A stretch of DNA of 46,645 nt from Campylobacteraceae bacterium. Its GTDB lineage: Bacteria > Campylobacterota > Campylobacteria > Campylobacterales > Sulfurovaceae. The translations under genes and the position numbers were made by a program. The stretch lies in the NCBI GenBank assembly GCA_027024155.1, contig JALVTE010000027.1, forward strand, positions 1 through 46,645, read 5' to 3'. This document shows positions 36,799 to 43,159 of the stretch, in pieces. The stretch's first letter is position 1, and each line of letters starts with the position of its first letter. The notes beneath the pieces were generated by a model that saw only the letters and a program-made list of their open reading frames with translations, ran no database searches and was not told the DNA's origin.

Positions 36799-37638
36799 AT
36801 GTCTAATATCCTTAAAGCTGTTACGAATATAGTGCAAAATCCAATTATTAATCTAGTTGATTATTATCAAGGAAGAAACAGAATAAACAATAGTGGTAAA
36901 GCTTTAGAAAATTATATACAAGATATATTTGCAGGAACTTTAAATGAAAATGATGAAAATAGAAGATTACAAAGATTACAAGAGGTATTTTCATATCAAG
37001 GAAATCAAAATAATCCACCTGATTTGATTTTAAGAGATTCTGACGCAATAGAAGTTAAAAAATTACAATCGAAAAATTCTGCTATTGCCTTGAATAGCTC
37101 TTATCCTAAAGCAAAACTATATGCTTCTAGTCCTATGATAACAAATGCTTGTAGAACTTGTGAAGATTGGGAAGAGAAAGATATTATTTATGCTATTGGC
37201 TATACAGATGATAACTCTTTAAAATCTTTATGGCTAATTTATGGGGATTGTTTTTGTGCTGATAAAGAGATATATGAAAGAATAAAAAATATAATATCTG
37301 ATGGTATAAATTCTATTCCTGATGTAGAATTTACACAAACAAATGAACTTGGAAAAGTTAAAAAAGTAGATCCGTTAGGTATTACAGATTTAAGAATTAG
37401 AGGGATGTGGCATATTGATAATCCAAATAAGATTTTTAATTATATTTATGAGTTTGATGAAGATGCCGCCTTTCAACTAATTTGTTTAATTAAATTAGAT
37501 AAATATAACTCTATACCTCAAGCGGATAAAGTTATTTTAGAACAGCTTGATAATATTAATATTCAAGATATAAAAATTAAAAATCCTAATAATCCAATTC
37601 AGTTAATAGATGCAAAACTATTAACTTTTAAGGTGTAA
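36799..37638 (+). CDS. Type II restriction endonuclease, NgoPII-like (GGCC)
   Basis: The opening ([44 protein letters not shown]) and the acidic core [17 protein letters not shown] match the NgoPII family of endonucleases; the latter is the PD...ExK catalytic motif. The length (279 aa) agrees with R.NgoPII. The target is inferred as GGCC from the family and from the partner methylase. It ends two bases before the methyltransferase start, so endonuclease comes first in a two-gene operon. Confidence 0.85.
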
Positions 37639-37640
37639 TA

Positions 37641-38735
37641 ATGAAAATAATTTCACTATTTTCTGGTGCTGGAGGGTTGGATTTAGGTTTTGAAAAAGCT
37701 GGATTTAAAACTATTTGGGCAAACGAATATGATAAAGAGATATGGGAAACTTATGAAAAAAACTTTCCTAATACCTTTTTAGATAGACGAAGTATAAAAG
37801 ATATACCATCATATGATATTCCTAACGCTATTGGATTAATTGGTGGACCACCTTGTCAAAGTTGGAGTGAAGCTGGAAAATTAAAAGGAATAGATGACCA
37901 TAGAGGACAACTGTTTTTTGAATTTATACGGGTTTTAAGAGATAAAAAACCGCTATTCTTTTTGGCTGAAAATGTATCAGGAATGTTGGCTTCAAGACAT
38001 AGTGAAGCACTTAAAAATATCAAAAAACATTTTACAGATAGCGGATATGATTTATATTTTAAATTATTAGATGCCAATGATTTTAAAGTAGCACAAAATA
38101 GAAAACGGGTATTTTTTATAGGATTTAGAAAAGATTTAAATATCAAATTTGATTTTCCTGCTCCATTTGAAAAAAAAAGAGTTTTAAAAGATGTAATTTG
38201 GGATTTAAAAGATAATGTAATTCCTGCAAAAGAGAAAAATTATACTAATGGCAATGATTGCAAGTTGCCAAATCATGAATATTTGCTTGGTAGTTTTTCA
38301 TCTATTTTTATGTCAAGAAATAGAGTTAGAAGTTGGGACGAGCCATCTTTTACTATTCAAGCGGGTGGAAGGCATGCGCCACTTCATCCACAAGCACCCA
38401 AAATGCAATTTGTAGAACAAAATAAAAGAATATTTGTACCAAATTATGAGCATTTATATAGAAGGTTAAGTATAAGAGAGTGTGCTAGAATACAATCATT
38501 TCCAGACGAGCATATATTTTATTATAAAAATTTAACAGCAGGATATAAAATGGTCGGTAATGCTGTTCCTCCATATTTGGCATATTATTTAGCAAAAGAG
38601 ATACGAAAGCAGCTGGTAAGTATTTATCCTAACAAATCCTTAGAACTAACAAATGAAAATGTTGATAAAAAAACAAAAATTAATGATATGGTATATTCAC
38701 TTAACATAGTTGCTAAACAAACGGCTAATCTATAA
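37641..38735 (+). CDS. DNA (cytosine-5) methyltransferase, HaeIII/NgoPII-like
   Basis: A 364-aa 5-methylcytosine enzyme with all main motifs: [19 protein letters not shown] (I), [16 protein letters not shown] (IV, catalytic cysteine), AENVSGM (VI), [15 protein letters not shown] (VIII), and [17 protein letters not shown] then [18 protein letters not shown] (IX-X). The target-recognition part ([26 protein letters not shown]) matches M.HaeIII closely, predicting methylation of GGCC. It protects the host from the adjacent endonuclease. Confidence 0.94.
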
Positions 38736-41127: not shown

Positions 41128-41301
41128 ATGAAATATATATTAGCGTTAATTGCCTCTTTATTTATTTTAGGTGGTTGTACACAAATTGTTACAGCACCTA
41201 TATCTTTAGCAGGTAAAGCTGTAAGCACTACTTTAGATGTTGCAGGTTCTGCTGGTGGTGCTGTAGTAAATACAGTTACTGGTGGAAGTGACGACGATTA
41301 A
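41128..41301 (+). CDS. 57-aa predicted lipoprotein
   Basis: A short frame encodes MKYILALIASLFILGGC, a lipoprotein signal with a GGC lipobox (cysteine 17), then a Ala/Gly/Val/Thr-rich segment (AGKAVSTTLDVAGSAGG) and a DDD end. Small lipoproteins of this composition with acidic ends are common in proteobacteria. It follows ppa by four bases and probably shares its transcript. The function is unknown. Confidence 0.65.
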   Translation: MKYILALIASLFILGGCTQIVTAPISLAGKAVSTTLDVAGSAGGAVVNTVTGGSDDD

Positions 41302-41660: not shown

Positions 41661-42893
41661 ATGCTAAGATATTCAATATCTCCAAATGTGGATATAGACT
41701 TAAACAGTTTAACGGTTGCACTTTTAAACTATATTGTTTCACAACAAAAACAGTGTGCTTTCTTCATTAGAGTTGAAGATATAGAAAAAGATAAAATAGA
41801 TGAATCTAAATTACAAGATAATATAAATCTTTTAAAAAAGTTTGCAATTAATACTGAAGTTGTAGTAAATCAGAGTAGTAATTTGAATATTTATGCTCAA
41901 TTAGCTACCAATTTAATTAAAGAAAAAAAAGCTTTCGCATGCTTTTGTAATGAAAAATTACAAGAGTGCAGTCAAAATTGTAAAGAATTAGAAGCATCAA
42001 AAGTAGAAAGCAAAGTAAATAGTGGTGAAAAATATAGTATAAGAGTTATAGAACCAAATGAAAATATAGCTTTTAGAGATATAATTTTAGGTAGAATAGA
42101 AAGAACAGCAAAAGAGATAGGTAATATATTAATTTTAAATAAAAATGGTTTAGCATCTGAAGATTTTGCGAATTCAATCGATGATATGAGTGCCTCTATC
42201 GATACTGTAATTAATACAGAAAATAGTATAAATAGCACAATAAAACAAATTTATATTCATAAACTTTTAAATTATAATTGCAATATAGATTATGCACACT
42301 TGCCAAATATAAAAAATTTAGATAATATATCACTTAAGTGGTTGTTACAAGAGGGGTTTTTGCCCGATGCAATTATAAATTATTTATTGACTCTTGTGAC
42401 TAGAGTGGATAAAGGGGTTTTTTATTTGCCCGATGCAATAACTTGGTTAGATATATCTAATATTAGCAATAAACCTATGGAGTTTAATTTAAATAAATTA
42501 AAAGAGTTAAATAGAGAGCATTTAAAAAATCTTGATAGTTTAAAATTATCAAAAATATTTGGTTTCGCAGATAGCGATATCGGAGAGCTATTAAAACTAT
42601 ATTTAGAAGATTCTAGCACTATAAAAGAGTTAGACCAACATATAGTAGCAACTTTTGCAGCAAAATCTTGTACAAAAGAGATACAAGAGATAGCTAATAT
42701 TATAAAAGATGCTCCTTATATAGAAAATTTTGATGATTTTTTAGGATATATTGAAAAGCGAAGTTCACTAAATAGAAGTGATATTATAAAGGCAATAAGA
42801 GTATTATTAACAGGTAGCAATAAAAGCCCCAATTTAGAGTTAATATATAAATACATCAACCCATATATACTGGAGGTAGCAAAATGTCGTTAA
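41661..42893 (+). CDS. Degenerate glutamyl-tRNA synthetase paralogue
   Basis: A 410-aa protein that aligns along its whole length with bacterial GluRS: RYSISPNVDIDLNSLTVALLNYI against the RFAPSPTG...HVGGARTAL start, FIRVEDIEKDK, FACFC, SIDDMSASIDTVINTENSINST, EGFLPDAIINYL, and the anticodon-domain IRVLLTGSNKSPNLELIYKYI. The class I motifs are lost: HIGH is replaced by DLNS (13-16) and the KMSKS loop by NLDNISLKW (219-227), which is also shorter; the RGED position reads NTEN. Aminoacylation is therefore unlikely, but the anticodon-binding part is kept. It sits where a gltX gene is followed by yggT in Campylobacter. A true GluRS must exist elsewhere. Confidence 0.8.
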   Translation: MLRYSISPNVDIDLNSLTVALLNYIVSQQKQCAFFIRVEDIEKDKIDESKLQDNINLLKKFAINTEVVVNQSSNLNIYAQLATNLIKEKKAFACFCNEKLQECSQNCKELEASKVESKVNSGEKYSIRVIEPNENIAFRDIILGRIERTAKEIGNILILNKNGLASEDFANSIDDMSASIDTVINTENSINSTIKQIYIHKLLNYNCNIDYAHLPNIKNLDNISLKWLLQEGFLPDAIINYLLTLVTRVDKGVFYLPDAITWLDISNISNKPMEFNLNKLKELNREHLKNLDSLKLSKIFGFADSDIGELLKLYLEDSSTIKELDQHIVATFAAKSCTKEIQEIANIIKDAPYIENFDDFLGYIEKRSSLNRSDIIKAIRVLLTGSNKSPNLELIYKYINPYILEVAKCR

Positions 42894-43159
42894 TATTCAA
42901 TACATTAATAAATATGTCAGTGGCACTTATTCAAATATATATTTGGATAATAATTATAGCTGCATTAATGAGTTTGGTAAATCCAGACCCATATAATCAA
43001 ATAGTACAAGTAATACGTAAATTGACAGAACCAGTTTTTAATTTCGTACGCTCTAAAATGCCCTTTGTGGTTATATCGGGAATTGACCTGTCACCTATTG
43101 TAATAATATTTGCATTAGATTTATTAATAAATATTTTATATAGTTTACGAATCAACTAA
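42884..43159 (+). CDS. YggT-family membrane protein
   Basis: A 91-aa protein with two hydrophobic helices (about 10-32 and 65-90) and the family's central stretch MSLVNPDPYNQIVQVIRKLTEPVFNFVRSKMPFV...GIDLSPIVIIFAL. Members are inner-membrane proteins of uncertain function, sometimes linked to osmotic tolerance or division. The start lies 10 bases inside the GluRS-like gene, after GGAGG. Confidence 0.88.
   Translation: MSLIFNTLINMSVALIQIYIWIIIIAALMSLVNPDPYNQIVQVIRKLTEPVFNFVRSKMPFVVISGIDLSPIVIIFALDLLINILYSLRIN

Follow-up and report, generated by a model that had tools for sequence, protein, structure and literature searches.

A likely recurrent pseudo-synthetase: GluRS2 copies that lost their catalytic motifs where GlnRS was gained in Sulfurovaceae

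What is a full-length glutamyl-tRNA synthetase (GluRS) for, once its catalytic motifs are gone? The question is raised by gltX2*, a gene in the window (the whole stretch of 46,645 nucleotides analysed here, contig JALVTE010000027.1 of a Sulfurovaceae genome nearest to a Nitratifractor metagenome-assembled genome, MAG). To judge from its sequence, the encoded GluRS2 is almost certainly catalytically dead. We consider it likely that it represents a recurrent pseudo-synthetase, formed among vent and sulfur bacteria after the gain of glutaminyl-tRNA synthetase (GlnRS) and retained for a non-catalytic role; we infer both the lack of activity and the role. The gene has the following parts (dN/dS is the ratio of nonsynonymous to synonymous substitution rates).

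41661..42893, forward strand: gltX2*, the presumed dead GluRS2, 410 amino acids (intact open reading frame; Pfam tRNA-synt_1c, PF00749, 5e-28)
41697..41708, forward strand: DLNS replacing HIGH (HIGN in active GluRS2), residues 13-16 (alignment)
41940..41981, forward strand: Cys94, Cys96 and Cys107, a putative zinc insert (retained in ~90% of dead copies)
42213..42224, forward strand: NTEN replacing RGED, residues 185-188 (alignment)
42315..42320, forward strand: deletion site of the KMSKRD loop, between residues 219 and 220 (alignment)
42510..42716, forward strand: helical domain 4, residues 284-352, LSxxFGFADxxIGxLxKxY...TxxEL (best-preserved part of dead copies)
42771..42833, forward strand: anticodon-recognition loop region, residues 371-391, decayed (sequence comparison, dN/dS)

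Is this protein a GluRS2 at all? A sequence-only reading of the window had described an end-to-end GluRS with DLNS for HIGH, NTEN for RGED and a loop without KMSKS, in an intact, maintained frame at the gltX-yggT locus, and all of this holds. The NCBIfam model TIGR00464 (gltX_bact) covers residues 2-400 with 206.2 bits, below its curated cut-off of 289.95, and the motifs of that family are missing, with HIGH replaced and the KMSKS loop deleted. The frame is unbroken over all 410 amino acids. Compared with active GluRS2 it has EDIE for EDTD, ASEDFAN for PTYNFAC and, around RGED, INTEN for IRGED; RN is also lost. The profile of GluQRS (YadB) gives 100.5 bits and its cut-off of 276.7 is not reached; the C-terminal domains are present. 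GluQRS, a paralog of the GluRS catalytic domain, has no anticodon domain but an intact active site, the reverse of gltX2*. Identity is ~40-50% to the intact GluRS2 of relatives versus 27% to the genome's own GluRS1, and this higher similarity, together with yggT synteny, groups the gene with the GluRS2 orthologues (gltX2-yggT). The closest copy in a scan of genome contigs, 75% identical, belongs to Nitratifractor sp. S142_10. gltX2* resembles the GluRS2 (gltX2) of Campylobacterota, for example that of Helicobacter pylori, in its place before yggT and its length class, but differs in having lost all catalytic motifs and in the presence of GlnRS. With catalytic residues gone and the protein retained by selection, it is, on sequence grounds, a pseudo-synthetase with a putative partner or role, and we caution against annotating such genes as glutamate--tRNA ligases.

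How could such an enzyme become superfluous? A genuine gltX does lie elsewhere in the genome, as the sequence-only reading had anticipated: an intact GluRS1 of 462 amino acids (HIGG/KLSKR) is encoded there, and so is a GlnRS of 759 amino acids (HIGH/MSKRK) with a GatB/YqeY tail. Ancestrally, the GluRS2 of Campylobacterales would charge tRNA-Gln with glutamate, which GatCAB would then amidate. Gain of GlnRS, often horizontal within Sulfurovaceae, would make this activity redundant. Decay of the catalytic residues would have followed; it occurred in parallel on about ten or more occasions within Sulfurovaceae and also in at least four further families. The full-length folded protein has remained under purifying selection, presumably for a second, non-catalytic role. 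The acquired GlnRS as trigger and the many independent repeats go beyond the sequence-only reading, as does the Shine-Dalgarno sequence of yggT in the last codons, described below.

Does motif loss go with GlnRS? The family sample comprised 60 genomes of Sulfurovaceae (Sulfurovum, Nitratifractor), mostly MAGs, and absence of GlnRS is uncertain in the incomplete assemblies. A GluRS match was present in all 60 and an alignable gltX2 in 55, two of them contig-end fragments, which leaves 53 full-length copies. Where GlnRS is present (n=35), 29 copies have lost HIGH and KMSKS, three have lost KMSKS only and three retain both; where it was not found (n=18), 15 retain both motifs, one (G047, in an assembly 77% complete) reads KMGKR and two (G028, G037) are degenerate. 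HIGH and/or KMSKS are therefore lost in 32/35 copies with GlnRS, versus 15/18 intact without it (Fisher p 8e-8, a value that ignores relatedness, for which a tree-based test is fairer). The rpoB tree calls for at least 13 state changes of HIGH, at least 12 of KMSKS and at least 11 of GlnRS; in independent pairs on this tree, loss accompanies GlnRS in ~6.8 of 10 and the reverse never occurs (median p 0.016). The pattern lies well outside what chance would give. The direction of change would be loss, because GlnRS-free relatives across the order have the intact state. A GlnRS tree, computed without G046, rejects a single clade per genus for g3 (p 1e-32), g8 (6e-5) and g11 (0.004), consistent with horizontal exchange of GlnRS within the family. 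Graded intermediates are present (G027, G055 and others), and the cultured type strain Nitratifractor salsuginis (G020) carries a dead copy with NVND and KRLSPHD. G028 and G037 are weak cases of dead copies without GlnRS: the first assembly is 72% complete, the second 93% complete with 7% contamination, and G019, the sister of G037, has GlnRS at a contig end. Nor was G001 accepted as a gene loss within its genus, since yggT is missing too and an assembly gap is possible.

Is the pattern confined to this family? Among 100 genomes of Campylobacterales (completeness at least 90%), 29 encode GlnRS. Outside Sulfurovaceae the active site is intact in none of the 15 copies accompanied by GlnRS (f3, f7, f15, f19), versus 16 of the 17 without it; the sole exception among the latter is G093 (L295, family f22), in which a frameshift/TAG splits gltX2, either a true loss or a sequencing error. 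GluRS2 was not found in seven GlnRS-bearing genomes of f5 and f8, and the loci examined there have yggT but no gltX2. In G092 (L301), which also has GlnRS, the dead gltX2 is cut to 313 amino acids, without the helical C-terminal domains, directly before yggT. The gene for GlnRS, glnS, mostly adjoins the dead gene in f15 and f19, and in G116 its 3' end overlaps the start of that gene; this suggests that glnS arrived at the locus or joined the operon. Adjoining copies were seen at L306, L279-L281, L283, L284, L288, L290, L138, L140 and L141 (f15, f19 and some Sulfurovum). In family f13 (G071, G087, G100 and others) the thresholds used gave no GluRS2 and no GlnRS, and GatB is present where tested; the GluRS1 of this family may be non-discriminating.

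Are the dead copies pseudogenes? They are not: they have been under purifying selection after inactivation. Closely related dead pairs share their inactive state, so dN/dS (Nei-Gojobori counts, rough at high dS) is measured after inactivation, and comparison across such relatives, which the sequence-only reading had proposed, gives 0.14-0.29, against 0.05-0.13 in active pairs. The pair G000/G040, both with DLNS and the same loop deletion, has 0.23 (bootstrap confidence interval 0.17-0.32), and dead copies of other families have 0.09-0.32. gltX2* itself has neither a broken frame nor a neutral ratio (0.23). Constraint extends to all seven domains (0.17-0.37); the highest value, 0.37, is that of the anticodon region (residues 353-392), and helical domain 4, with 0.19, has one of the lowest.

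What is being selected, the protein or the passage of ribosomes? The gene runs into its neighbour as follows.

42872..42877, forward strand: GGAGGT, Shine-Dalgarno sequence of yggT, within codons 404-406 of gltX2* (read from the sequence)
42884..43159, forward strand: yggT, an open reading frame that overlaps gltX2* by 10 nucleotides

The two genes are probably translationally coupled. An overlap of 1-13 nucleotides recurs in nearly all family genomes, a Shine-Dalgarno-like motif lies near the 3' end of gltX2 in 51 of 55 family genes, and dS is lowered over the last 18 codons; a search of Rfam found no element here. All this would suit a gene that survives only as a translational leader to yggT, its useless product having to be translatable and harmless, so that frame and fold persist. 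We regard this as unlikely, however: the ratio of 0.14-0.29 extends along the whole length and is far from neutral, a short open reading frame would do as well, f5 and f8 have yggT in the absence of gltX2, and in G092 yggT lies behind a truncated gene. The Shine-Dalgarno sequence accounts for the conservation of E-V at the C terminus and for the drop in dS over the final codons, not for constraint elsewhere; the invariant E405 was accordingly dropped as a sign of protein function.

Could the protein still be reading tRNA? A dead GluRS that binds, senses or sequesters tRNA-Gln or tRNA-Glu would explain why the GluRS fold is kept, why the zinc-insert cysteines mostly persist and why the stem-contact domain is constrained. 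An AlphaFold2 model built with 40 sequences (mean predicted local distance difference test, pLDDT, 93.4) has a complete GluRS fold with C-terminal helical domains, and its best Foldseek hits are all GluRS (template modelling score, TM, ~0.8). Conservation was compared between 31 active and 58 fully dead sequences. The positions lost in the dead ones are the catalytic ones and the anticodon loop GLKGKxxFKPLRxLLTGAEHGPE, whose segment KGKxxFKPLRxLLTGAEHGPE we take from GluRS structures to be the anticodon-reading part; the decay of this loop roughly keeps pace with that of the active site. Some dead lineages also lack the zinc-insert cysteines. A tRNA-binding regulator or sink is thus rather improbable, and the tRNA-Glu/Gln sensing put forward in the sequence-only reading fares poorly. 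Its statement that the anticodon-binding region is kept stands as regards the fold; in dead copies the recognition loop itself is decayed, and it is helical domain 4 that persists instead.

Might this simply be slow pseudogenisation in progress, its residual constraint being misread as function? The graded intermediates and the lineages in which the gene is lost or truncated fit this idea, which we nonetheless hold to be quite unlikely. For the close pairs it is contradicted: they share the inactive state, and neutral simulation at the G000/G040 divergence yields dN/dS of 0.63-1.11 and an average of 33 stops in the two copies (minimum 19), where none is seen. None of the 80 named family loci has a premature stop or a broken frame. 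Frameshifted relatives, which the sequence-only reading had named as the mark of decay, are thus missing from the family; at the order level there are the truncated copy of G092 and the gene loss in GlnRS-bearing genomes of two families. An active or altered ligase with non-canonical motifs, to which the complete fold and the weak GluQRS match might point, is highly improbable, as HIGH, KMSKS, EDTD, YN and RGED are all lost in the window protein and GlnRS and GluRS1 cover the reactions.

What, then, would the non-catalytic role of the pseudo-synthetase be? A binding or scaffold function that uses the retained fold and helical domain 4, not anticodon reading, would fit best; with the anticodon loop decayed, we favour a protein scaffold over a tRNA sensor. 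The entropy of residues 301-325 in domain 4 is nearly the same in dead as in active copies, and the invariant S297, D304 and T320 of this domain lie at or beside helix starts in the model. Several points weigh against a retained role. Most domain 4 invariants look, in the model, like helix caps or core, and would reflect retention of the fold rather than an interface. Constraint is relaxed, with dN/dS of dead copies 2-5 times that of active ones, and the gene losses in f5 and f8 and the truncation in G092 show that the role is dispensable. Since some lineages dropped gltX2, the role would be useful but not essential.

And who would be the partner? With AsnRS absent (0/60 family genomes, 0/26 order-level genomes tested) and GatB kept (26/26 of the latter), the machinery of asparagine transamidation is the most natural candidate, and GatCAB/AspRS is our preferred one, offered tentatively and with considerable doubt. 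Presence and absence are uninformative about dependence on GatCAB, GatB being near-universal and AsnRS found nowhere. The GlnRS-bearing lineages f5 and f8, which have no gltX2, retain GatB/GatCAB and lack AsnRS, which speaks against any strict need of GatCAB for gltX2*; the partnership with GatCAB suggested in the sequence-only reading is thus possible and not obligate. The gatB match at G120:C1:107627-109042 has one internal TAG. It is conceivable, although we lean somewhat against it, that the GluRS2 of Campylobacterales always had a second function independent of aminoacylation (a scaffold, perhaps in asparagine transamidation), and that each arrival of GlnRS removed the enzyme activity and so exposed this function, in about ten or more natural replicates.

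How does this compare with known systems? Pseudo-synthetases such as HisZ derive from aminoacyl-tRNA synthetases, do not aminoacylate and are kept for a non-catalytic role; the conversion of gltX2*, by comparison, would be recurrent, graded and tied to horizontal gene gain. In the parts available, PMC3927822 (2014) lists six epsilonproteobacterial genomes with both GluRS2 and GlnRS, Nitratifractor and Sulfurovum among them, proposes that the YqeY-tailed GlnRS derives from Deinococcus-Thermus and gives HxGN as the epsilonproteobacterial GluRS2 motif; those parts do not mention motif loss, retention under selection or parallel repetition. The same source describes an inactive GluRS2 of Thermotoga maritima, a paralog reported to charge neither tRNA-Glu nor tRNA-Gln; that protein arose by duplication, whereas gltX2* and its counterparts in many lineages would repeatedly have lost an activity that had become redundant. 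No earlier report of gltX2 motif loss was found in the literature searched (open-licence papers). The published co-occurrence can thus be reinterpreted: the enzyme would have been replaced and its dead relic kept under selection, for a non-enzymatic job that is previously undescribed. The independent conversions (about ten or more), together with the graded intermediates and the lineages from which the gene has gone, would form a replicated natural experiment in which a non-catalytic synthetase function can be isolated, and in N. salsuginis it is directly testable.

Two further observations concern the window. A small lipoprotein-like open reading frame of 57 amino acids (lipobox LGGC) lies at 41128-41301, between the pyrophosphatase gene and gltX2*. 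A probable type II restriction-modification pair, judged by eye from the sequences, occupies 36799-38735.

36799-37638: endonuclease-like open reading frame (by eye)
37641-38735: C5-cytosine DNA methyltransferase (by eye)
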